A stretch of DNA of 50,370 nt, taken from the IMG/VR virus record IMGVR_UViG_3300025096_000031, positions 1 to 50,370 of that record. The stretch is one strand, 5' to 3'. Source of the stretch: a virus. Below the pieces are notes generated by a model. It ran no database searches. It was not told where the DNA came from and was given only the letters and a program-made list of their open reading frames with translations. The position numbers and the translations under genes are program-made. How positions within the stretch are numbered: the stretch's first letter is position 1; every line of letters starts with the position of its first letter. Below, one piece after another: positions 28,446 through 50,370 of the stretch.

Positions 28446-29924
28446 ATGGCACAACCTTATAGTTATGGATCAGGAACCGCTACCCAATTCACCACAGGCG
28501 AACAACGCCAGGTACTTGAGTTAGGCGAAAAGATTCATATGTTTAACCCAGATGTCACGCCCATATTTACTGTTATGGGTAGATTATCTACATCAGTAAC
28601 CCCCGTTCCAATTTTTGAATGGATGGAAGATGAATATTTCATCCGTCCTGATGTAAAATTGATCACAGGCGCAGCAACGGTCCAGGACCGTGGTGGCTCC
28701 GCAGGTGATAACGATACGGGATTCATCATCAGAATGAACCGACAAGCGCAATTTGAGGCGTTTGAAAAAGGTGCGCTTTACACTATCTCTGGTTTAGGGA
28801 CAGGAGAAACGCAGTTTGAATCCGCAAATACTGATGTTGAACTAATGTGTGTTGCTCTTGGTCAAGAGTGTCAAGCAGGGACAGTTGGTGGCGCAGTTGC
28901 CGCATCTGAATTAGATGTTGCATTTGTCCATTCCGACGGAACATTACCTGCTTTTCGTTATGACAAGAACGGCACAACAGTTGCAGGTTTTGCATATACT
29001 GCAACATCAACAATCACATTCACATATGTCGGGAATGTCGGAGAATGCTCCGATCTTGATCAGCCTGGTCATTCTGCTACGCAGACTAACCTAACTGACA
29101 ATGAAACGGCAACTGTGTATCGATCCAGAGTCGGATGGCGTGAAGGCGCAAACATTGGCGAAATGACATCCAAAAAGGTTCGTAGACTATCGAACTGTAC
29201 GCAGATCTTTAGAGAGCCTTACTCAATCACAGGCACACAGAATGCTGCCAAAATGTATGGTGGATCTGAAATGTCACGCTTACAAGCACGGAAATTGAAC
29301 AAAATCAAGATGGATCTGGAATATGCTATCTTGACGAATGGCGCAAAATCCCTTGATGCAACGGCAGAAAATCCCCAAAGAACAATGGCAGGACTTGGTG
29401 TCGGAGGAACGGCAGGAGTTATTCAATCCTTAAACGCAGATGTGAATGCTGAATTGAAGATGACCGAAACATATTCATCTTCTGCAGTTGGTGGATTGGG
29501 CGAAATGGACGATGTCCTGGAAAAAGTATTCCAGGATAGTTTGTCTGGTTCTATGAAGAAAACCGCATTTTGCTCAAATCGTTGGCTGAAGAAATTGGTA
29601 GGTCTGGCTCGTACAGACTCAAATACCAGTATCAATGCTGAAATGGGATCTAACGCTACCGCAGGGTTGCGTGTTACAAAATACTTTGGGCCTATCGGTG
29701 AAATGGACTTTGTGGTCCATCCGTTGCTCAACAGTACATTGGATGCGTATGCGGTTGTTCTTGATTTTGCAAACATTGCTTGGCGCCCATTGGCTACAAG
29801 AGATATGCAGTTGAGATCTAATGTGATCCAGGATGGTCGTGACGGTCAAACTAATGAGTGGTTGATCGAAGCAGGAATGGAAATTCGGAACGAACAAACA
29901 CACGCTATCTTAAAATTGGTATAA
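28446..29924 (+). CDS. Major capsid protein (SU10/DUF5309-like, HK97 fold)
   Basis: 492 residues with AAAGGAG before the ATG. The start NPDVTPIFTVMGRLSTSVTPV and the following FEWMEDEYF match the N-terminal pattern of SU10-type capsid proteins. Later parts include a helix with SRLQARKLNKIKMDLEYAIL (spine helix) and the C-terminal core (DAYAVVLDFANIAWRPL; EAGMEIRNEQTHAIL). An inserted Ala/Thr/Gly-rich beta segment (about residues 135-235) may be an extra surface domain. Followed by a hairpin terminator, which is usual for this highly expressed gene. Confidence 0.85.
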   Translation: MAQPYSYGSGTATQFTTGEQRQVLELGEKIHMFNPDVTPIFTVMGRLSTSVTPVPIFEWMEDEYFIRPDVKLITGAATVQDRGGSAGDNDTGFIIRMNRQAQFEAFEKGALYTISGLGTGETQFESANTDVELMCVALGQECQAGTVGGAVAASELDVAFVHSDGTLPAFRYDKNGTTVAGFAYTATSTITFTYVGNVGECSDLDQPGHSATQTNLTDNETATVYRSRVGWREGANIGEMTSKKVRRLSNCTQIFREPYSITGTQNAAKMYGGSEMSRLQARKLNKIKMDLEYAILTNGAKSLDATAENPQRTMAGLGVGGTAGVIQSLNADVNAELKMTETYSSSAVGGLGEMDDVLEKVFQDSLSGSMKKTAFCSNRWLKKLVGLARTDSNTSINAEMGSNATAGLRVTKYFGPIGEMDFVVHPLLNSTLDAYAVVLDFANIAWRPLATRDMQLRSNVIQDGRDGQTNEWLIEAGMEIRNEQTHAILKLV

Positions 29925-29998: not shown

Positions 29999-30904
29999 AT
30001 GAGATATCAAGAATTATACGAAATGGTCGATATGGGTATGCTCCGTGCAAATGTCAATTATCCCGTATCGGACAATCTTAAAGAATTTTTAGTAACACAG
30101 GCGGTTGATAAGATCGGGGAAACTGTTGTTCTAAAGAAAAAGACTCTATCCCCATCTGTAGTAGGGACGACGGCTATATTGGATGCCGACGATATGACAT
30201 CAAAAGTTTATAAGGTAGAGGCAGGAGATAAGAATCTTCCCTTTATCAGCGAAGAAACAACAAACCCAAATACCGACACAACAACAATAACAAACAATGC
30301 CTGGTATGTAAAACAAAACAGAGAGTCTGGGACCATATCTTCGTTGGCGTCTACAGATGCAAGTCCAAGTTCAGTAACTTTCACAGGCTCTATAAACCCT
30401 AATGTAGATCAGGTGGTAGGTAGTAGAATATTTATAAGTGAAGTAGGTGGCATTGTAAAGGCAGGTGAAAAACACCCTTTAAACGGCCAAACTTGGCGTA
30501 TAACGGCCGTAAGTGGCGAAGACCTAACCTTTACCGCTAAAGACAATACGCACACGAATGGGGGCTATTCTGCGTATACTGCAGGAACAGGGGTATATGA
30601 AGAGAGAACATATACAATCCATTTTTTAAAGGCCCCTGAAGGGACCGTAAAAGTTTATTATTATGCAAAGCCCACACCAATGGTCAGTTTGGCAAGTGAA
30701 GTGGACCTACCAAGTGAATTGGTTTCTGCGGTGGTCCATTTAGTTATAGCCAGGTTAATGTCGATTGACGGCCAGATGCAAATGGGATCTGGGCATCGTG
30801 GTATAGCAAAACAGGTAATTGAAGAATGGATCCAAGCCAGGAGCAGAAGAGAACAGTTTCCAGACATTGTTCCACCACCAATGACTAACTTTATAGATAA
30901 GTAG
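29999..30904 (+). CDS. Head-tail connector-region protein
   Basis: 301 residues. The N-terminus is helical (DNLKEFLVTQAVDKIGETVVLKKKT); the middle is Ser/Thr-rich beta (TSKVYKVEAGD; VGSRIFISEVGG); the C-terminus has KVYYYAKPTPMVSL and a helical tail (SAVVHLVIARLMSIDGQMQMG). Position right after the capsid fits an adaptor or head completion protein. AAAGG lies 6 bases before the ATG. No firm family. Confidence 0.55.
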   Translation: MRYQELYEMVDMGMLRANVNYPVSDNLKEFLVTQAVDKIGETVVLKKKTLSPSVVGTTAILDADDMTSKVYKVEAGDKNLPFISEETTNPNTDTTTITNNAWYVKQNRESGTISSLASTDASPSSVTFTGSINPNVDQVVGSRIFISEVGGIVKAGEKHPLNGQTWRITAVSGEDLTFTAKDNTHTNGGYSAYTAGTGVYEERTYTIHFLKAPEGTVKVYYYAKPTPMVSLASEVDLPSELVSAVVHLVIARLMSIDGQMQMGSGHRGIAKQVIEEWIQARSRREQFPDIVPPPMTNFIDK

Positions 30905-30912
30905 AGGATATT

Positions 30913-33900
30913 ATGGCAACATTAGGCACAAGAGTTGAAGATCTTATCGGAGCATTCTCCGATACTACGGCAAAGGATAGCGCATTAACAGATGCAGCCC
31001 AGGAAATCTTAAATGTACTTCCAGATGAGTGTCTGTGGTTAGTGATAGATGAAAGCGCAGATATAGTATCAAACGGGTATTCAGTAGACACCTGTAAAGT
31101 TATGGCAGTAACAAGGGATGGTGAGTTTTGTAAGTTGATGCCCCTGGCCTACGAAAATAGAGTTATCAATGTCCCAGAAAGTTTATTTGCCCCGTCCACA
31201 AATATGCCCGTATACATTCTGAAGGAAAATAAGATATCAGTATATCCTACAGGATTTGGTCAGTTTAAGGTCCAAAAGGTAAATTATCCCACAATATTAA
31301 GTACAGATACCAATATAGGTAAGATTGAAAAGTCTGGTGTGACAGTAGATGTATCTGCGTTGTTTACTAAAACATCTCACGGCTTATCGGTTGGTGATAG
31401 TGTAACATTAGAAAGTTGGACCAAAGATGTGGGTGGAGGTGCATTCCCTGAATTGGAAGGGATGACCACACAGGTGGCTACGGTCCCGTTAACATCTACA
31501 TTTACATTAGAAGGAGTTACGGCAGCGTCCGAGGCCGCAACGGGAACCATTGTATCTGGGACGATGTTCCCAAAAGAATTAGAACATATTGTTGTCCTGG
31601 GGGCAGCATTGAAAGGCCGAATCTGGCAATTAGTAGAAAAAAGGGCAAGTTTACCTGCAGCGCCTACAGTAGTTACTCTATCATCTCCCCCATCGTTGGT
31701 GGCCATCGACACTAATCTGTCGTCCCCCATATCATCCACATATACGGCCCCAACTGCTCCGACCAAACCAGGCGCTGCAAATTTTACATACACACCGCCA
31801 AGTAAACCAACGCCGCCACAAGGACCATCGTTCACATATACAAGTCCATCAGCACCAACACCGCCTGGCACACCATCATTCACATATACTGCGCCTTCAC
31901 CACCAACGGCACCAGGCGCACCAAGTTTTACATTTTCACCACCGAATGCACCCATAGCCCCAGGGGCGCCACAGTTTTCATATACAAGTCCATCGTCAGT
32001 ACCGACGGCGCCTGGCGCACCATCGTTCGTGTATTCACCACCAACGGCACCAACACCGCCAGGAACACCTACATTTACATACAATGCGCCAAGCCTACCA
32101 TCGGCGATTGTACAACCTAATTTCACATATACAAGCCCTACACCATTTCCAACGGCACCAGGCACACCATTTTTTCAGTATACAAGTCCTACAATAACGC
32201 TTGATACTGCACCTGTTATTACAGACCTGGATCTGTCAGCGATAACTGTCCCAGATCCCCCTGCCGTATCAATATCATATACTGCTGCTACAGGTGGTGA
32301 TGCATCTAATACAGATGCAACGACACAGGCCACGGGACCAACTGCAGTAGGATCTATCCCTATTGTGGCAGATGCAACATATGGATCCTTACCTACGGTC
32401 CCAACTTATAATACTCCGCCTGTTACTACAAACTTTGCGGATGCAGAAACATACATCTCAATAAATGAAGATATTGAACTTGCCCAGGCGAATATAACAA
32501 AGAACCAGGCCGTACTACAGGAATATCAATTAACGATATCAAACAATTTGAATAAGTTTAATGCAGAATCACAGGAATACCAGGCAGGTATAAAAAAACT
32601 TGATCGTGAATTTGAAGACGCAATAAAACAGAATATAGCGGATGCAAATAACGAAGTTAACAGGATCCTGAAACAAGCAGAGATTGATGCAGCGCAAACG
32701 CAACAAGATACAAAAGCAGCAATAGAAGTGGATATTCGCAATAAAGCACAGGACCAAACATTAGATATACATAACAAAGCCCAGGCCCAGGCATTAGCAA
32801 TAACGAATGCCGCTAAAGATGTAGAGGCAGAGATTGAAACTTCAAGACAAAAGGTGCAGGTATTCCAGGCAGAAGTACAAAGATATCAACAGGAAGTTGT
32901 TACTGCAGTACAGGTATACCAGGTAAATGAGATTCAAAAAGAAATTGCGCTATGGCAGGGAGAGCAAACACATAAGATCCAAAAGTACACCGCCGATATA
33001 AATAATGCCCAGGCCGCTTATAGATCATCATTTGATGAATATGCTGCAGAAAATAGTAAGTATGCTGCTGAAGTCCAGGGATGGGGATTAAAGGTTCAGG
33101 ATGCCCAGGCGTTATATAGGGCATCAGTTGATGAATATTCAGCCGATAGTGGTAGGTATCAAGCAGAGATCCAGAAGTATTCACAAGAATTAGCCAACGC
33201 ACAGGCGCAATACAGGGAAGATGTCGATGAGTACACGGCATCAAATCAGAAGTATTCTACGGAAGTCCAAGCATATGCGACAGAGATAAACGATTCCCAG
33301 GCAAGTTACAAAGCGGATGTTGACATATATAATGCCGAAACCGCTAAATATTCATCAGAAATCCAGGCGTATTCTGCAGAAATAGGCAATGCCCAAGCAG
33401 CGTATAAAGAAGCGGTTGATGAATACACGGCATCAAACGGTAAATATTCCGCAGAAATTCAAGCATATTCCATTGAAATAGGTAAAGCACAGGCGGAGTA
33501 TAAAGAAGCGGTTGACGAGTATGCTGCAGAAAGCCAGAAGTATTCATCAGAGATCCAGGCCTATTCCATTCAGGTCCAAAACGCACAAGCATCTTATAAG
33601 CAATCTGTAGATGAATATGCATCAAGTAGTGGCAAATATGCTGCAGAAATCCAATCATTCAATGCCGAATTGTCGGATGCACAAGCAGTATACAGAGAGG
33701 AAGTAGACGAATATACTGCAGTAATAAATAAATTTGCATCTGAAACACAATTATATAATTCCGAATTACAGAACGCCCAGGCGGAATATAAAGTATTCTT
33801 TGACGAAAAAACATCAGATAATCAATTGTATGGAGTAGAGTTACAGGCCTATTCTACAGAATTGCAGAATGCGGTCCAGGAATACAAGGTCGCTTTAGAC

Positions 33901-34176
33901 ACATTCTCAAATGAGTTACAGACATTATCATCTATAAATCAAAGTATAATAGCAAATAATAATTCAACAATCCAACATTGGCAAACAGAGAATAGCCTTG
34001 ATGTTACTAATTATTCGGCCCAGGTACAGGAGTACCAATCGGAAGTTGGCAGGTACCAGGGAGAACACGGGTTAATGATACAAGAGCAACAGGCAATCCA
34101 ACAACAGTACCAGGTAGCCTTACAGGGTTATATGTCTAAATATCAACCAACGCCAGGGGTTCAGGGGAATGCTTGA
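30913..34176 (+). CDS. Large connector/tail protein with Pro-rich and coiled-coil repeats
   Basis: 1087 residues in three parts. Residues 1-230 resemble head-tail connector proteins (EILNVLPDECLWLVIDESAD; VMAVTRDGEFCKLMPLAYENR; KISVYPTGFGQFKVQKVNYP). Residues about 275-430 are Pro/Thr/Ser-rich repeats of 16-17 residues (motif FTYTSPSAPTPPGTP, about ten copies). Residues about 510-1066 are helical, with nine 32-residue repeats (VDEY-AS-KYSAEIQAY-E). It probably sits at the portal vertex with its repeats forming a long rod or fibre. Antisense ORFs over the repeats are shadows. Confidence 0.7.
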   Translation: MATLGTRVEDLIGAFSDTTAKDSALTDAAQEILNVLPDECLWLVIDESADIVSNGYSVDTCKVMAVTRDGEFCKLMPLAYENRVINVPESLFAPSTNMPVYILKENKISVYPTGFGQFKVQKVNYPTILSTDTNIGKIEKSGVTVDVSALFTKTSHGLSVGDSVTLESWTKDVGGGAFPELEGMTTQVATVPLTSTFTLEGVTAASEAATGTIVSGTMFPKELEHIVVLGAALKGRIWQLVEKRASLPAAPTVVTLSSPPSLVAIDTNLSSPISSTYTAPTAPTKPGAANFTYTPPSKPTPPQGPSFTYTSPSAPTPPGTPSFTYTAPSPPTAPGAPSFTFSPPNAPIAPGAPQFSYTSPSSVPTAPGAPSFVYSPPTAPTPPGTPTFTYNAPSLPSAIVQPNFTYTSPTPFPTAPGTPFFQYTSPTITLDTAPVITDLDLSAITVPDPPAVSISYTAATGGDASNTDATTQATGPTAVGSIPIVADATYGSLPTVPTYNTPPVTTNFADAETYISINEDIELAQANITKNQAVLQEYQLTISNNLNKFNAESQEYQAGIKKLDREFEDAIKQNIADANNEVNRILKQAEIDAAQTQQDTKAAIEVDIRNKAQDQTLDIHNKAQAQALAITNAAKDVEAEIETSRQKVQVFQAEVQRYQQEVVTAVQVYQVNEIQKEIALWQGEQTHKIQKYTADINNAQAAYRSSFDEYAAENSKYAAEVQGWGLKVQDAQALYRASVDEYSADSGRYQAEIQKYSQELANAQAQYREDVDEYTASNQKYSTEVQAYATEINDSQASYKADVDIYNAETAKYSSEIQAYSAEIGNAQAAYKEAVDEYTASNGKYSAEIQAYSIEIGKAQAEYKEAVDEYAAESQKYSSEIQAYSIQVQNAQASYKQSVDEYASSSGKYAAEIQSFNAELSDAQAVYREEVDEYTAVINKFASETQLYNSELQNAQAEYKVFFDEKTSDNQLYGVELQAYSTELQNAVQEYKVALDTFSNELQTLSSINQSIIANNNSTIQHWQTENSLDVTNYSAQVQEYQSEVGRYQGEHGLMIQEQQAIQQQYQVALQGYMSKYQPTPGVQGNA
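31735..32195. repeat. Pro-rich repeat array (about 48-51 bp units)
   Basis: About ten units encode TFTY-(S/A)PP-(S/T)AP-PGTP. Codons differ between units while the protein pattern is kept. Likely an extended, flexible linker. Confidence 0.8.
33031..33894. repeat. Nine 96-bp coiled-coil repeats
   Basis: Nine consecutive 32-codon units starting FDEYAAENS, VDEYSADSG, VDEYTASNQ, VDIYNAETA, VDEYTASNG, VDEYAAESQ, VDEYASSSG, VDEYTAVIN and FDEKTSDNQ. The unit is a helical heptad-like module with conserved Tyr at fixed places. Confidence 0.85.
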
Positions 34177-34667
34177 TGAGGAAGAGTTTAATAAGAAGTG
34201 ATAAAATTGAGATCAGACTATCCCAGGTTAGCGGATATGGTGTATTCGCAAAGGAAGATATAAAAGAAGGGACCATATTAGAAGAATGCCGTCTAATATT
34301 TATTCCGTTTGATCATAAAGTTGAAACATTAGGTAGGTACCTATGGCATTGGGATTCAAACGATCCTATGAGATACTGTGCTTTGCCAATAGGTTATGGT
34401 AGTTTATATAATTCATCTGAAGACGAAGAGCCAAGTGTGCGTGTTGAGGCAGATGAAGAAGAACAAATCTTGATATATATTGCAAATAAGAGTCTAAAGA
34501 AGAACGAAGAATTAACAATGAAATATAAGTTTTATAAGGACTATAAATATTATACAACCATAGAACCGCAAAAGAGTGAGAATATAGATCTTCTCGTAAA
34601 TGGATATGGTGGAGATGATAGATCAGAATTGATATCAAGAATATTCCCTGGAGTCCCAATTGCCTAA
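34176..34667 (+). CDS. SET-domain protein (putative protein lysine methyltransferase)
   Basis: 163 residues from the ATG at 34176, whose first base is the last base of the upstream TGA; a TTG three bases earlier is less likely. The SET plan is clear: SGYGVFAKEDIKEGTILEEC (residues 19-38), ALPIGYGSLYNSS (69-81) with Asn79, where known enzymes have NHS, then a beta strand (ILIYIANKSLKKNEELTMKY) ending in the conserved Tyr. It most resembles the compact viral SET proteins such as chlorella virus vSET. Its likely action is S-adenosylmethionine-dependent methylation of a lysine on a phage or host protein; target unknown. NHS is changed to NSS and the usual PN to PS, so activity is not certain. Confidence 0.8.
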   Translation: MRKSLIRSDKIEIRLSQVSGYGVFAKEDIKEGTILEECRLIFIPFDHKVETLGRYLWHWDSNDPMRYCALPIGYGSLYNSSEDEEPSVRVEADEEEQILIYIANKSLKKNEELTMKYKFYKDYKYYTTIEPQKSENIDLLVNGYGGDDRSELISRIFPGVPIA

Positions 34668-37080
34668 AGAAGTATTAAAAATAACAAATTTTGGAGCAGG
34701 ATTAAATAACAACGCAGATCCATCATCTCTTGAAGATAATGAGTTAATGGAGGCGACAAATGTTGAATTGAGTCAAAAAGGCACAATAAAAATGCCTGGT
34801 GATGCAAAGGCAACAGTTCAGACAGTTGTTACGACAACACCATCTGCAGGAATTGGCTCTAATGGGACCATAGCAGGATGGGCGTCAGATCACTCAATAC
34901 AAACAGATCTGATATACATACTTCCTGCTGTAGGAAGTATTGCTGATTTTGAAGGTAAATGGGCATTTAACAATGCCGTAGCAGGATCTGCAACAGGTAT
35001 GGGTAGGGTTGTCCTTATCAAAGAGAATATCACCTATAACTCCACTACATATGATCAATTATATATTACAAATGAATATACCACCGTAGGATCCATTGCA
35101 AGTGTGTGGGCGGCAACAGATACTATCTGGTATGCAGATGATGCCATAGGTACAGGAATAACACAATATGGGGCGGCAGCATCTGTGGACTATGTGGAGC
35201 CTGGACCAGGTGTCCCCGAATCAAACCAATGGTTGGCACACCTTTCTACAGATGGGTTAGTGTCTATATATAATTATAATTCAGATAGATTTTTTAAGGA
35301 TGTCTTTGATCTTGGTTCAGGAACTTCTGTGAGTGGCAGCGCAAGTGTGCAGGATCAGGTATTGAGATTATCAGATATGACCTTTGAATCACAATATGCT
35401 CTTTCAAATAAGTCTAAATGGTGGGGGTATATTAGAAGAGATATGTTTCAATATGATACTACGGGCGTTGGTATTACATCCGAAAGTAGATGGGTTGATG
35501 AAGATGCGGATCTGTTAAGTTGGGGTGATATAGGCTGCACCATTGCTATGTTCAATGCAGGTTCGGCCAATATAGCCGATTCAGATATTGGGAGTACGGT
35601 AGGGGATAAAATTGTTATATCGTATTGGAAAAATAAGGATGAGTCAGGTCTAAACGCATATGAGGGTGGATGGAATGGTACATTCCTATTTGCATCTTGC
35701 CCTATCTTCGATGAAAAACAGTTTGGTGAAATAGATGAGTTATCATCAATTGATTTTGTAGGACATACACTCAACATATCTGTTAGTGTTTCAGCAGGTA
35801 CGACAGATCCTACATCTTTTTTGTCACCCGTAAACAAGTGGCCTGGACTTGGTACAACGGATAATAAAAGAGTTACGGGTATGCGTATATACTTTAAGTC
35901 AGTTGCTACCGATGATTGGTATATATTGAAGGATATTGATTTTGTTCACGGTGATGTTGGGACCAGGTGGGATACATTAGATACTGCTGCCGAAGTTACT
36001 TATGGTAGGCCAGATATGACATCATTTGTAATAGCGCTTAATCAGGCATCTAATAATGCAGATGAGGAATATGCCATCACAACCACTAATTGTACAACCA
36101 CTTATACTCTCACAGTAACAGATGGTTGGGGAAATAGGCAAGGCTTTATAAGGGTACACGGATTCCATTATGATCCTGTATATGTTGCGGTCCCTGATTT
36201 GGTTACTCAAAGTGGTTCTTCATTGAATATCCCCGTTACAAATCCTGTAGCAGGTACTTATCAATGTTTTGCTGAACTGATAGACGAGAATTATCAATCC
36301 ATTGCAATTACTGCTGCTCTTTCTCTGACATTCGTTGCAGGATCATCGGGCGCACCCCCTTCCCACGGCGGTTATGGTGGATGTTGTTGGGTAGCAATGG
36401 AATTATGGGGGCAGATGGATGATAGAACGCACCAGGCACGATTTTATGTAATAAATAATAATAATTGGTTTACAAGACTTTATAAGAGATATGGTATGGC
36501 CTGGGCAAAGATTGTTAAAAGAAGTAGGTTAATCCAGACTATGGTTAAGCCTATTTGGAAGTATATGTCAGCGCAGGGAAAAGAGTTTTTCAATCGTCCA
36601 ACGGGATACCCAAAGGCTACACGGGCCATCCAGGATCTGCGTAAGAAATATCCTGATATGTTTGAATATTATTTAATAGGAAGTAATGCAAGGCAAGAAA
36701 AGGTAACACATTATTATGATGTTAATATTGTTCCGATAGGAAACGATAGACATACCTTCGCAATATGGGAAGATGTATTAAAAAGCCTACACTATGTACA
36801 GGAAGATGATCAGAGGTATGTGAATCCAAGTATATGTCCACAGTTTGCATTTATTAAAGATTATAGTGGTCGTGATGTTTATAAGCATAGAGATGATGAA
36901 GTTGATTGCTATTTTTATTATGACGAAAAATTTCCAAAGAATTTTGTGATAGAAAATTTAGAAGATGAAGGAGATAATACTATGGGGAACTTATGGCACA
37001 ATCGAATCCCATTGATTGGTGATAAGTGGAGGGCCAGGGGCCTGGATAGACTCCCTTATACTCACAAGGAGATTGTGTAA
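34660..37080 (+). CDS. Large tail protein with CFI-box-like segment
   Basis: 806 residues starting at a TTG (34660) with GGAG before it; the start LPKEVLKITNFGAGLNNNADPSSLEDNEL is that of phage tail proteins. Residues 50-560 are beta-rich, propeller or sandwich-like. Around residues 570-640 lies GGCCWVAMELWGQ with two Cys (575-576), then WFTRLYKRYGMAWAKIV, resembling the CFI-box C-terminal domain. The last 160 residues are acidic and Tyr-rich (YLIGSNARQEK; FIKDYSGRDVYKHRDDEVDC). It overlaps the SET gene by 8 bases. Probably part of the tail tip. Confidence 0.6.
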   Translation: MPKEVLKITNFGAGLNNNADPSSLEDNELMEATNVELSQKGTIKMPGDAKATVQTVVTTTPSAGIGSNGTIAGWASDHSIQTDLIYILPAVGSIADFEGKWAFNNAVAGSATGMGRVVLIKENITYNSTTYDQLYITNEYTTVGSIASVWAATDTIWYADDAIGTGITQYGAAASVDYVEPGPGVPESNQWLAHLSTDGLVSIYNYNSDRFFKDVFDLGSGTSVSGSASVQDQVLRLSDMTFESQYALSNKSKWWGYIRRDMFQYDTTGVGITSESRWVDEDADLLSWGDIGCTIAMFNAGSANIADSDIGSTVGDKIVISYWKNKDESGLNAYEGGWNGTFLFASCPIFDEKQFGEIDELSSIDFVGHTLNISVSVSAGTTDPTSFLSPVNKWPGLGTTDNKRVTGMRIYFKSVATDDWYILKDIDFVHGDVGTRWDTLDTAAEVTYGRPDMTSFVIALNQASNNADEEYAITTTNCTTTYTLTVTDGWGNRQGFIRVHGFHYDPVYVAVPDLVTQSGSSLNIPVTNPVAGTYQCFAELIDENYQSIAITAALSLTFVAGSSGAPPSHGGYGGCCWVAMELWGQMDDRTHQARFYVINNNNWFTRLYKRYGMAWAKIVKRSRLIQTMVKPIWKYMSAQGKEFFNRPTGYPKATRAIQDLRKKYPDMFEYYLIGSNARQEKVTHYYDVNIVPIGNDRHTFAIWEDVLKSLHYVQEDDQRYVNPSICPQFAFIKDYSGRDVYKHRDDEVDCYFYYDEKFPKNFVIENLEDEGDNTMGNLWHNRIPLIGDKWRARGLDRLPYTHKEIV

Positions 37081-38300
37081 TGGCTAATTATAGTTATCGA
37101 TTGCCGAAAGAACCACACCAGGGCTTTTTCTTCCCAGATCCCCCGTTTCAAAATGGATATACGAGTTCAAAAACTAAACCATATACACGGGTACGGTGGA
37201 AGTGCCAGGCGTTTGTAAATAAGACCAGATATATTGGGAATGTTTATCTTACATCAGAGGGTGATGAGAATGTTGAAAAGTCAGAAAGATTTGCAGATTC
37301 GGTATTTAAGTCAGATGTTGACAGTTTAGATACATTTCGTCCATATAGAAGAATTGATGTTGCAGCAGGGGATGGTGAAGATATTACGGCTCTGGCCATC
37401 TATGCTGATAGATTGTTGGAGTTCAAGCAAAATACATTATATGTGATTAACATCCAGGGAGATTCGGAGTTTCTGGAGGCTACCTTTAAATATAAAGGTG
37501 TAGATGGTCCACAGGCCGTATGTGAAACGGATTTTGGTATAGCCTGGGCAAACAAACAGGGATGTTATTTATATACAGGTAGTGGTAATGTGCAAAACCT
37601 GATCGAGAAAAATGGGCGTAGGATAATTGCATTATCTTCTGATAGCACACCTAACCAGGTAGAGAATGAACCCTGGGATAATTTTATAACCAATAGCACC
37701 GCAGTAGGTTATTCCCCACAACATAGGAAATTATTTGTAAAAAAGGCAATTGGTGCAGGATCTAATGCGACATATGGAGGATCGAATGCAGATTTGTATA
37801 TATATGATATAGCAAGTGGATCCTGGACATTTCACTATGCTCAATCTGGTTATGGGTTGAACGATAGCAGCGATTTCTTTGTAGATATGAACAAGGAAAT
37901 GGTCTATTGGGCGGAAGAAACGGATAATACAAATGTGCATTTATTAAAATGGCAGGGAAATCCACAGAACCAGAATGCTTGGTCAATATGGACAAAAAGT
38001 TTCGATTTCGGGGATCCGTATCAAGAGAAAAGGATATACAAAGTGGTAATTAGGTGTAAGAGAGGTGGAGGTATGCCTGTGTCTATATCGGTTGATGGTG
38101 GTGAAAGTAGCCTTAATGTTGGGACCTTAACCCAGGGCGCAACCGCAGGTTGGGAAGAGTGTACAACAAATCTACCAATAAATGCATATCAGATTATGGT
38201 AGGTCTTAATGATTATAGTAGTCCCGTATCCCCAAACGAAGAATTTGAGGTATATGAAATCAATATTATTTACAGAAAACTTAAAGTTAAGGGTTTATAA
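37080..38300 (+). CDS. Tail needle-base or nozzle-like propeller protein
   Basis: 406 residues starting in TAATG overlap with the previous gene. Beta-rich: ITALAIYADRLLEFKQNTLYVINI, DFGIAWANKQGCYLYTG, DLYIYDIASGSWTFHYAQ resemble the propeller blades of P22 gp10-like tail stabilisation proteins. Likely plugs the portal after packaging. The next gene also starts in a TAATG overlap. Confidence 0.6.
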   Translation: MANYSYRLPKEPHQGFFFPDPPFQNGYTSSKTKPYTRVRWKCQAFVNKTRYIGNVYLTSEGDENVEKSERFADSVFKSDVDSLDTFRPYRRIDVAAGDGEDITALAIYADRLLEFKQNTLYVINIQGDSEFLEATFKYKGVDGPQAVCETDFGIAWANKQGCYLYTGSGNVQNLIEKNGRRIIALSSDSTPNQVENEPWDNFITNSTAVGYSPQHRKLFVKKAIGAGSNATYGGSNADLYIYDIASGSWTFHYAQSGYGLNDSSDFFVDMNKEMVYWAEETDNTNVHLLKWQGNPQNQNAWSIWTKSFDFGDPYQEKRIYKVVIRCKRGGGMPVSISVDGGESSLNVGTLTQGATAGWEECTTNLPINAYQIMVGLNDYSSPVSPNEEFEVYEINIIYRKLKVKGL

Positions 38301-41300
38301 TGCCGAACCCCGTTGACCAATTTAACAGAACCAGAAGAGTAGTCACACACTCTAAAGAGAGAAATCAGAAAATAACTGACGGGTATCCGATGCCCACGGA
38401 AGGTAGGAATGGAGATGTATCATACAGGCGTATAGGCAATGGGATTGTGATGTTTGTGAGGGATAACGATGGATGGATCAATATGGGCCAAAGCGAAGGT
38501 GCTAATACGGACCTTCAGATTAAGAATAGTAATAAAACTACAGATTATTACAATTATGGCGGTAGTAGTGGTGGTTCAACTTTTACGATGTCAGAAAGTG
38601 TAACATCTAATGATGATTCGTTGAATATATCAGGTGATAATCCGATGACGGGAAATTCTACGATAAATATTGAAGTAGAAACAGATCCATTTAAGGTTAT
38701 CGGAAATAATATTGTGGATAGCGGTGCAGTAGGTGGCATAACATTTGACGGATCAGGTAATACTGCCGTGGATGGAGATCTCACAGTAACAGGGAATAAC
38801 ATAGTAGATAGTGGCGCAGCATCTGGCATAACATTTGACGGATCAGGTAACACGGCTATAGATGGAGATCTTACAGTAACAGGAAATAATATATTAGATA
38901 GCGGAGGAAGTTCTGGTATAACATTTGATGGATCTGGCAATACTGCTATCGACGGTACTCTTCAATTAAGTGGAGATGATATCTTGAGTAGTGACGGCAC
39001 AAGTGTTATAACATTGTCTGATACTGATACAAGCGGATCTATAGATGATGTAACGATAGTGGCGGACCTTACTGTATCTGGGGATCTAACAGTAAGTGGG
39101 ACCGAAACGATTATCAATACAGGCACACTCCAGGTAGAAGATTTAAATATAGAAATGGGCGTGGTTACTACCCCAACGGATGCTACGGCAGATGGTGGTG
39201 GAATTATATTAAAAGGGACAACCGATAAAACTATTCTATGGGTAGATGCAGATGACGCCTGGAAGTATAATCAGCACATTATGATGACCACCACGAATGA
39301 ACTACAATTCCACGATAATACTTCTAAAATATGGGCATCTGGAGCAGGAACATTAGAAATAGAGGCAGCAGCAGGAGTATTACTCTCTTCTCCAAATATG
39401 GCAGGTGTAGGTGATACGGGAAAGATTACATTCGATACAGGTAATGCTGCCGCAGGTGATAGTGGTAAAATTACTATACAAACGGGTAGTGCATCTGGTA
39501 CTGCAGGTGATATAGATATAAATACTGCCGCAACAATAGATATTGATGCATTAACATTAGAAATGACATCTACCACAATGGATGTAGATGCCACTACGCT
39601 TACAATGGATGGGACCACAGGCACGATAACATACACTACATTATTACAGTTGGACTCTACGACCGAAACTGAAATGAATACGGCATTATTGGATGTTAAT
39701 GCAACGACTCTGGAAATGGATGGGACCACAGGAACTATCAGTTATAGCACAATACTAAATCTTGATTCCACTACAGAAATTGAAATGAATACTGCGTTAT
39801 TAGATATTGACGCAACAACATTGGAGATGGATGGTACCACAGGGACCATTAGTTACTCTACAATACTAAATTTAGACTCTACCACGGAAATTGAGATGAA
39901 TACCGCCTTAATGGATGTTGATGCGACAACCCTGGAGATGGATGGAACTACGGGAACCATCAGTTATACTACAATACTAAATTTAGATTCCACCACAGAG
40001 ATTGAAATGGACACCGCATTGTTAGATGTTGATGCTACCACATTAACAATGGATGGGACAACAGGAACCATTAGTTATAGTACAATATTAAATCTTGATT
40101 CTACAACGGAAATAGAAATGGATACGGCTCTGTTAGATGTTGATGCGACATCACTTACAATGGATGGAACGGATGCGGTAATTACATATCCAACTATAGA
40201 CCTGGTGGCGTCTACAGATGTGGACATAGATAGTCCAACAATAGATTTAAGTTCCCAATGGACAGACATTGACCTTATAGCGTCCACCACAAAGGCATTA
40301 ACTATAGATAGTGATCTAATGTCCTTCGATTCAAACCAACGAAGGGTTGGGATATCGACCAATGCACCCTATCACGAATTCGAGATATATGAAGGTAAAT
40401 TAGCATTTAACCTTATAGATGGTGAGGCAGGTATCGTATGGAATAGTGATGCTACAGACGAAATGAGATTATACAGGGATGCTATATCATCTAACCAATC
40501 TGATCTAAAATTGGAACAACATAATGGGACTTCACTATTCACAGATTTTAAATGGTCTAATGTGGCGATTGGAAGTAATACTGTCAATCCAAAAGATAGC
40601 GCGAATTTTACATTGAGGGGGAAGGCTATAGAGGACGAGGCCATAATTGTGTTTTCAGCAGGGGCATCATTGGTATCATATCAATGGTTAATGGGTTATG
40701 AGAATCAAGTGTTTAGCCTTTATGATGGTAAAAATACGAAATATGCTTTTACTGTAACGCCTGATAAGTGTGATATAAAACTTAAACAGGATGAACAGAA
40801 ATTAATATTCTACAATGATGATCTCTTTATACAGACCAAAGATCCAAATTTGCAAATTTTTAATGAAGATTATGGTGGTCTTATTAATATAAAGTCAAAA
40901 TCAAATCCTGCAACCACAACAACATACGATGCAAATATCTATATAGGACCACAGGGCGGTCTTGATGATGCAGTTCGTATACACGGCCATCGTGTTGAAC
41001 TGCAAACAATGGCAGATACAGGTTATGTGTCAGCAGACAATAAATTTAAGGCTTGTAGTAAATACTTTGTATCGGGATCTACGAACATTGATGCTCTTAA
41101 TTATGGGACCATTGAAGACGGCGGTGGTGCAATTACAATAGATTTAGATTATGCGGAAACATATGCCACCCAAACAAAAGCGATCATTAAAGAAGATATG
41201 GTGGAGTTTAGGACCGATGGAGAAGATGCTGATATCTATAATGGATCCGCACCGATAATGTATAATGTCCCTTTTCGGGCAGAGTACAGTTGTAATCTTG

Positions 41301-41506
41301 CAGGGACTTTAGTTGATTGGGCAGCAGATCCTAATGAGGTTAACCAGGCAACCAGGAATGGCTCTGATATGTTATATAATTATTCAGGGTTGGGATATAT
41401 TTCAAATATTAGACAAGCACCTGCAGAACTTGTGATCTGTAGCAATGTAGCAGGTCCGTGGAATAAAGGTTCATATGCCCATTGGTATGATGGAGGGTTA
41501 CACTAA
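38300..41506 (+). CDS. Tail fibre with beta-helical repeats
   Basis: 1068 residues. The N-terminal 130 residues would attach to the tail. Residues 133-252 are four 30-residue repeats (VTGNNIVDSGAASGITFDG). Residues about 427-630 are about 5.5 repeats of 37 residues (LDVDATTLTMDGTTGTISYS then TILNLDSTTEIEMDTAL). The last 400 residues include a possible receptor or trimer domain; no intramolecular chaperone is evident. It should form a trimeric fibre binding the host surface. Confidence 0.75.
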   Translation: MPNPVDQFNRTRRVVTHSKERNQKITDGYPMPTEGRNGDVSYRRIGNGIVMFVRDNDGWINMGQSEGANTDLQIKNSNKTTDYYNYGGSSGGSTFTMSESVTSNDDSLNISGDNPMTGNSTINIEVETDPFKVIGNNIVDSGAVGGITFDGSGNTAVDGDLTVTGNNIVDSGAASGITFDGSGNTAIDGDLTVTGNNILDSGGSSGITFDGSGNTAIDGTLQLSGDDILSSDGTSVITLSDTDTSGSIDDVTIVADLTVSGDLTVSGTETIINTGTLQVEDLNIEMGVVTTPTDATADGGGIILKGTTDKTILWVDADDAWKYNQHIMMTTTNELQFHDNTSKIWASGAGTLEIEAAAGVLLSSPNMAGVGDTGKITFDTGNAAAGDSGKITIQTGSASGTAGDIDINTAATIDIDALTLEMTSTTMDVDATTLTMDGTTGTITYTTLLQLDSTTETEMNTALLDVNATTLEMDGTTGTISYSTILNLDSTTEIEMNTALLDIDATTLEMDGTTGTISYSTILNLDSTTEIEMNTALMDVDATTLEMDGTTGTISYTTILNLDSTTEIEMDTALLDVDATTLTMDGTTGTISYSTILNLDSTTEIEMDTALLDVDATSLTMDGTDAVITYPTIDLVASTDVDIDSPTIDLSSQWTDIDLIASTTKALTIDSDLMSFDSNQRRVGISTNAPYHEFEIYEGKLAFNLIDGEAGIVWNSDATDEMRLYRDAISSNQSDLKLEQHNGTSLFTDFKWSNVAIGSNTVNPKDSANFTLRGKAIEDEAIIVFSAGASLVSYQWLMGYENQVFSLYDGKNTKYAFTVTPDKCDIKLKQDEQKLIFYNDDLFIQTKDPNLQIFNEDYGGLINIKSKSNPATTTTYDANIYIGPQGGLDDAVRIHGHRVELQTMADTGYVSADNKFKACSKYFVSGSTNIDALNYGTIEDGGGAITIDLDYAETYATQTKAIIKEDMVEFRTDGEDADIYNGSAPIMYNVPFRAEYSCNLAGTLVDWAADPNEVNQATRNGSDMLYNYSGLGYISNIRQAPAELVICSNVAGPWNKGSYAHWYDGGLH
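38696..39055. repeat. Four 90-bp fibre repeats
   Basis: Units start at 38696, 38786, 38876 and 38966; the fourth is diverged. The protein pattern is (I/V)TGNN-(I/V)D-SG-SGITFDGSGNTAIDGDL, with synonymous differences between copies. Confidence 0.85.
39578..40195. repeat. About 5.5 tandem 111-bp fibre repeats
   Basis: Units begin at 39578, 39689, 39800, 39911, 40022 and 40133 (partial). The 37-residue protein unit is strongly conserved while the third codon positions differ from unit to unit. Confidence 0.9.
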
Positions 41507-49407: not shown

Positions 49408-50370
49408 TGCAAAGATTCGGAGTACCACAAACAAAAATAGATAGTGTACTTGCTCCTGGTAAGGAAGAGGAGAAAAAGCAAGGTGTCTTCAGGTTCGGTG
49501 TAGATCCTGCTGAACTTAAAACTCCTGTTAATGGCGATGGTGAACAGATCCAAGAAAGCATACCTGGTGAAGGTGCAAGTATTGATACTGTTATAGCGGA
49601 CCAGGCAGCGCAGCAGACGATAGACCAGGACTATGAGAATAGTAAGATTACTTCGACGCCTGATCAGGATCTCCCCATTACAGAAACGGAGGGTAAAAGT
49701 TCGGACCTATCAAATGATCTATTAAATAAGACTCCAGATCAACTGATGGATGATGAGATAAACACATTGACAGATGATGAAGAGTTTAATGTATGGTACC
49801 AGGGATGGCAGAATCAGATAAACGAGCATTATAAGAACAGAGATATTAGGGGCGAAGATGGATCCTTATTCCAAATGGGTGGACCAGACAATAAGATGGC
49901 TCCATACCCTTCAGAACCTAATAATATGATTAAGGCATATGATTACAAAGCCGCATATAAAGACGGGGTAGAACCTTCCCTACAAAAACATAAAGATGGT
50001 AGGCATTTTTGGCATTGGCCAAGCAAGTACAAAGATAAGGATCACCCTAATAGGTATGTAAGTACAGATAGTTATCTAAATGCATACGCACCAGGTATGT
50101 TAGGTGATCAGAAGATCCCAACAAAAATTAAGAAAATGTTATATGATATCCACCAGGAAACAGGTGGAAAGATGGATGAAACAGAAAGAAATACTGTGGC
50201 CTATAAGTGGTTACAGGCCAATGGAGTAGATCCTAAAACATATGATCCTAATTATAAAGCACCCGTTGGATATAAGACAAGTGAGTATGCTGCTGCGGTC
50301 CGTAAATGGCGTCCTGTAAATAGAGATAATACTCTATTGGATGATTATACCCCTGAAATGGAAGAAGAGT
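49407..50370 (+). CDS. Giant polyvalent injected virion protein, N-terminal part (continues at position 144)
   Basis: The ATG at 49407 overlaps the previous stop. The 321 codons here (the last ones repeated at 1-143) start MQRFGVPQTKIDSVLAPGKE and run on in frame to 8272. The first 110 residues are acidic and disordered; from about 125 there is aromatic-rich sequence (EFNVWYQGWQNQINEHY; GRHFWHWPSKYKDKDHPNRY) without a known domain. The full product is about 3030 residues and takes up about 18 percent of the genome. Confidence 0.9.
   Translation, partial: MQRFGVPQTKIDSVLAPGKEEEKKQGVFRFGVDPAELKTPVNGDGEQIQESIPGEGASIDTVIADQAAQQTIDQDYENSKITSTPDQDLPITETEGKSSDLSNDLLNKTPDQLMDDEINTLTDDEEFNVWYQGWQNQINEHYKNRDIRGEDGSLFQMGGPDNKMAPYPSEPNNMIKAYDYKAAYKDGVEPSLQKHKDGRHFWHWPSKYKDKDHPNRYVSTDSYLNAYAPGMLGDQKIPTKIKKMLYDIHQETGGKMDETERNTVAYKWLQANGVDPKTYDPNYKAPVGYKTSEYAAAVRKWRPVNRDNTLLDDYTPEMEEE
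50228..50370. repeat. Right copy of the 143-bp terminal direct repeat
   Basis: This is the copy of positions 1-143. Joining 50370 to position 144 keeps the frame of the giant gene open, because 50337 and 110 fall in the same codon phase counted from the ATG at 49407. The one synonymous mismatch (50354) suggests a strain variant or a read error at an assembly join. Confidence 0.95.

Follow-up and report, generated by a model that had tools for sequence, protein, structure and literature searches.

The 50,370-base record analyzed here over its whole length (hereafter, the window) comes from an uncultivated tailed phage and encodes a P22-type portal and a terminase. A 143-base terminal repeat (positions 1–143 and 50228–50370, with 1 mismatch) lies at the 2 ends of the record, which is therefore probably a complete genome, either circularly closed or terminally redundant. 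The capsid and tail genes relevant to this study, along with the features of a small gene for a SET-domain protein lodged among them, are listed in Table 1. The SET gene begins with an ATG that overlaps the stop codon of the upstream gene (TGATG), and its own stop codon falls inside the start of the next gene, now assigned to a TTG. The sequence-only reading had put a methyltransferase between a connector/fibre protein and a tail tip protein, and the overlaps with both neighbours bear out this placement.

Table 1. Features of the capsid and tail region of the window.
Feature	Position	Strand	Basis
Major capsid protein, SU10 type	28446..29924	+	Pfam SU10_MCP, 146 bits
Head-tail adaptor-like protein	29999..30904	+	Pfam SU10_adaptor, E=2e-5, slightly below curated cut-off
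1087-aa protein, upstream neighbour of SET	30913..34176	+	Conserved N-terminus, RIEDxIG-type family
SET-domain protein, 163 aa, putative protein-lysine methyltransferase	34176..34667	+	Pfam PF00856, 39.2 bits
GYGVF motif, residues 20-24, S-adenosylmethionine-side SET motif	34233..34247	+	Aligned to vSET GYGVF
YNSS motif, residues 78-81, where NHS is canonical; N79 kept	34407..34418	+	Alignment counts
Tyr117, equivalent of the catalytic SET tyrosine	34524..34526	+	Aligned to vSET Tyr of EEITISY
C-terminal extension, residues 121-163	34536..34664	+	Low-confidence model, possible short helix 149-156
First part of split tail-nozzle-like gene, downstream neighbour of SET	34660..37080	+	Homologue starts
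Second part of nozzle-like gene	37080..38300	+	AF2 model resembles podovirus nozzles

The upstream neighbour belongs to a family kept downstream of the adaptor in relatives, and its C-terminus is coiled-coil-like, with approximately ten 32-residue repeats. Homologues of the downstream neighbour begin with MPK/MAK...FxGGxN at the same place; this gene, the presumed tail tip gene of the sequence-only reading, and the one that follows it form a single larger gene in many relatives. The product of the second part models as a podovirus-type tail nozzle, its AF2 model, with a pLDDT of only 65, matching the nozzle proteins of SU10, P22 (gp10), and T7 (gp12) at E values of 1e-10 to 1e-5. Positions 38300–41506 encode a fibre-like protein of 1068 aa in which a 37-residue unit recurs almost perfectly (93% identity at lag 37).

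Fold and profile place the 163-aa protein in the SET family, as a member of the minimal vSET type. It matches the complete Pfam SET profile (positions 1–105; E=1e-9, curated cut-off of 22.4 bits), and its best sequence match in the PDB is vSET of the chlorovirus PBCV-1 (E=7e-8). The AlphaFold model (mean pLDDT 78.7, core >90) was matched to SET enzymes by Foldseek with E values of about 1e-9 and by VIA-align with Z-scores of 16.0, 15.2, and 14.7 to 5h6z, 4rz0, and 3kma, that is, to Schizosaccharomyces pombe Set7, a Plasmodium SET protein, and chlorovirus vSET, with rmsd values of 1.6–2.0 over 104–110 residues. The profile and fold matches rule out a chance or mistranslated ORF, and the SET-domain identity proposed from the letters stands. 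The protein retains GYGVF, the EEC strand, and both the cofactor Asn and the catalytic Tyr, and the replacements noticed in the sequence-only reading, NHS by NSS and PN by PS (residues 86–87), are present as described. Membership in PF00856 is thus supported by the profile, the fold, and the Asn and Tyr, but not by the NHS His, a common active-site motif that the profile does not demand; its lack lowers the claim of canonical catalysis and leaves the assignment by fold and profile unaffected. We consider the protein a putative S-adenosylmethionine-dependent lysine methyltransferase. Its C-terminal extension has pLDDT values below 50 at residues 125–147, and the aligned homologues lack an extension of the same form.

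The 80 capsid relatives compared share 44–52% identity with the window, except for 2 near-identical records, and their gene order runs capsid, adaptor, RIEDxIG protein, and GGxN protein. No SET was found at the RIEDxIG/GGxN junction in any of the 48 relatives in which both flanking genes could be read, or anywhere in 50 records searched in full, which rejects SET as a standard gene of the group; it did not recur within the window phage's own group, and 4 records (L001, L041, L120, and L199) are one and the same near-identical contig and offer no independent evidence. In the 48 relatives, the 2 genes mostly abut, in a few cases with 1 or 2 other small genes between them, and the TGATG at the start of SET is the kind of stop/start overlap that relatives use at this very junction. 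Its absence from relatives and the overlaps at both ends mark the SET gene as a lineage-specific insert, with the coiled-coil gene that follows the adaptor on one side and the split nozzle gene on the other.

SET proteins were gathered from IMG/VR, and 47 nonredundant phage sequences were aligned. Eight residues are invariant in all 47 (G22, F24, E36, C38, G73, N79, E112, and Y117) and G20 and V23 are kept in 46; because the profile collection used GYGVFAK-type and EEC-type stretches as bait, the conservation of those motifs is biased, whereas N79, E112, and Y117 lie outside the bait. Position 80, the His of NHS, is Ser in 21 sequences, His in 20, Thr in 3, Cys in 2, and Ala in 1. With His replaced in 27 of the 47, Ser at this position is a common state among phage SETs, and decay of a single gene is not favoured as the origin of NSS. 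Related pairs of phage SETs gave dN/dS values of 0.17–0.50 for non-His and 0.04–0.12 for His members; both groups are under purifying selection, with the weaker constraint on the non-His members. Loss of the His maps to 1 change on the first tree and to 5 changes when the motif columns are left out, with a single clade not rejected in the latter case (p-AU 0.31).

SET genes beside virion genes recur in unrelated phages, as would be expected of an enzyme encoded together with its substrate. Family scans identified tail fibre, sheath, baseplate, or virion structural genes next to SET in L002/5/12/49, L016, L062, L069, L094, and L100, and in L003/4/6/42, L027, L048, L106, L075, and L109 it adjoins probable structural genes that match no family. 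By these labels, 17 of the 27 non-His SETs are tail-adjacent versus 1 of the 20 His SETs (Fisher 5e-5), a p value that overstates the case because the labels are our own, assigned partly by inspection of the sequence, and the rows are related by descent. The association tracks clades of the SET tree, and a comparison of His loss with tail neighbourhood by independent pairs yielded 1 pair only and had no power. Elsewhere, SETs are flanked by recombination genes (L015/18/19/33/97), precede a gene judged RecA-like by sequence inspection (L061/71/92/95/103), or have a terminase-like gene (L010/13/14) or sugar genes nearby. Searching INPHARED with 3 queries (E 1e-3) returned no close relative in cultured phages and a single close relative overall, an uncultured 735-kb phage genome present as 2 records. 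A second SET-like gene accompanies the main one in L067 (5609–5992, with a Pfam match to the C-terminal half only) and, by sequence inspection, in L091 (4165–4551). Intein/Hint-like domains occur in probable tail-fibre proteins beside SETs at L048:5030–5986 and L069:6864–7946.

In 2 phages, SET and a 2OG-Fe(II) oxygenase (PF13640) are fused in one protein (L048:6001–7101 and L106:5971–7041), encoded between 2 probable fibre genes, one of which bears an intein/Hint-like domain. A search by close similarity for more such fusions found only L048 itself, and no PF13640 partner was found in the window phage. PF13640 is present in 13 of the 47 SET-bearing phage records, whereas 25 relatives of the window phage without SET have none; these relatives are not a matched control, as phage type and genome size are not the same in the 2 sets. 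One SET-carrying record of 25,887 bases (L104) has 9 PF13640 matches, 2 of them below the curated cut-off.

The cellular homologues comprise 5 Bacteroidota loci. SET is accompanied by PqqD, Transglut_core3, Asn synthase, and sulfotransferase genes in L204 and by PqqD, Transglut_core3, and PhyH in L203, with L201 and L202 similar by sequence inspection only. These 4 loci resemble lasso-peptide clusters, where SET could possibly serve as a lysine-methylating RiPP tailoring enzyme. In the fifth, from Mucilaginibacter (L200:4809–8968), SET lies near tandem phage-tail-collar proteins, an Asp/Asn beta-hydroxylase, and a formyltransferase. From this handful of loci, the Bacteroidota contexts point to tailoring of co-encoded peptides or proteins.

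The sequence-only reading had also proposed that SET methylates virion lysines, for example those at fixed places of the 32-residue repeats next door. A virion substrate is plausible in view of the recurrent tail and fibre neighbours and the oxygenase fusion, but the repeat lysines fare worse as its target. Among the 10 units, Tyr, Asp, and Gln are invariant and no Lys is, with position 14 being Lys in 6 and Arg in 4, and position 26 Lys in 7 and Arg, Leu, or Thr in 1 each. In the relative L121, which has no SET, the homologue is 1231 aa long and includes an extended coiled-coil region; compared with L121, the neighbouring tail proteins of the window showed no raised Lys content. Most of the virion proteins flanking SETs in other phages lack such a period; a strong 32-residue one was seen in L003, but the gene concerned precedes its SET by several ORFs. 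On these 3 grounds (no invariant Lys, a homologue without SET, and flanking proteins mostly without the period), the repeat lysines are a weak candidate.

We consider it a little short of an even chance that SET methylates co-made virion proteins during tail assembly. This phage lineage would have gained a small vSET-like gene as an insert in its tail operon; the enzyme would be translated together with the flanking tail proteins, presumably late in infection, and, with S-adenosylmethionine as methyl donor, would modify lysines on a tail or fibre protein made alongside it, either ahead of assembly or in its course, yielding a tail that may differ in stability, protease resistance, charge, or surface binding. 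This explanation is favoured because it accommodates the SET fold with its kept Asn and Tyr, the overlaps at both ends inside the tail operon, the virion genes beside 17 of the 27 non-His SETs, the oxygenase fusions between fibre-like genes, the PF13640 domains in 13 of the 47 records, the tailoring contexts in Bacteroidota, and the non-His dN/dS of 0.17–0.50. Against it, the scanned relatives carry no SET and the tail therefore does not need one, other phage SETs adjoin recombination, terminase, or sugar genes, the His is missing, the window phage has no PF13640, and the Lys content of the neighbours is not raised. The relatives located beside virion genes suggest that phages methylate tail proteins of their own but fall short of proof. 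More tentatively, the non-His phage SETs may constitute an active tail and fibre tailoring system, at times joined by a 2OG-Fe(II) oxygenase, which would add hydroxylation to methylation, and spread among unrelated uncultivated phages by insertion into tail modules.

The altered active site raises the prospect that loss of the His has left a catalytically dead SET, now a binding or structural protein. Mutation of the His abolishes activity in some eukaryotic SETs, and the combination of NSS, PS, and a long branch in the tree would fit such a fate, which we nonetheless judge improbable: Asn79, Tyr117, Gly22, Phe24, Glu36, Cys38, and Glu112 are invariant in the 47 sequences, the substitution is common to 27 of them and hence is no single-gene decay, and other SET pairs are under purifying selection. 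Moreover, PR-domain enzymes lack the NHxC motif, and PRDM9 is active nonetheless.

An active enzyme could still have its substrate outside the virion. It might be made late and act on a host or phage protein that does not belong to the virion, in which case the tail operon would only offer a site where a mobile accessory gene is tolerated. In favour of this, the SET gene is a lineage-specific insert, relatives carry other small genes at the junction in question, and the SETs of other phages occur in many contexts; this seems rather doubtful, since the recurrent tail and fibre neighbours of the non-His SETs would then be due to chance or clade history. It is also unlikely, if slightly less so, that SET, either packaged or synthesized early, promotes infection by methylating a nucleoid, translation, or surface protein of the host. 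The product of a tail-operon gene could be packaged, with the extra C-terminal tail as a docking piece, and the closest solved sequence, vSET, is carried in virions and targets host chromatin (PMC7019647, PMC3946773), but no packaging signal is known, bacterial hosts lack H3-type chromatin, and the position and fusions in other phages point to co-encoded proteins as targets.

Virion methylation, the reading we prefer, would matter beyond this phage. SETs of this type are best known from algal viruses and from cells with nuclei, and SET enzymes have mostly been studied on histones. We found no account of phage SET proteins in the literature searched, an absence that is no proof, and as far as that literature shows, enzymatic lysine methylation of phage virion proteins is undescribed. 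Tail methylation, if it occurs in phages, would be a further factor in adsorption, stability, and host range, would account for a gene that recurs in tail modules with no assigned use, and would supply compact SET enzymes whose active-site motif is altered. Because of the SET-oxygenase fusion, the idea can be tested directly by virion mass spectrometry.

Several known systems offer points of comparison. FliB, a flagellin lysine methylase, is not a SET protein; it would be an analogue of a virion-methylating phage SET in logic, as an enzyme encoded together with the surface filament whose lysines it methylates. S. pombe Set7 and P. falciparum PFL0690c, the top fold matches (Z 15–16, 26–35% identity), are, unlike the phage protein, cellular eukaryotic enzymes with other substrates and no tie to virions. 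Protein-modifying 2OG-Fe(II) hydroxylases are likewise encoded by viruses, as exemplified by the PBCV-1 prolyl hydroxylase, and a domain of this superfamily is fused to SET in L048 and L106, unlike in the window phage; no hydroxyproline was found in PBCV-1 virions (PMC7019647). By sequence, the closest counterpart is PBCV-1 vSET (A612L), both the best PDB sequence match and one of the top 3 fold matches, which is likewise virus-encoded and a minimal SET domain without pre-SET and post-SET regions. vSET belongs to a virus of an algal host, has canonical NHS and DPN motifs, and trimethylates H3K27 (PMC7019647, PMC3946773), whereas the phage SET is distinguished by its NSS and PS motifs, a 40-residue C-terminal extension, and its location in a tail operon.
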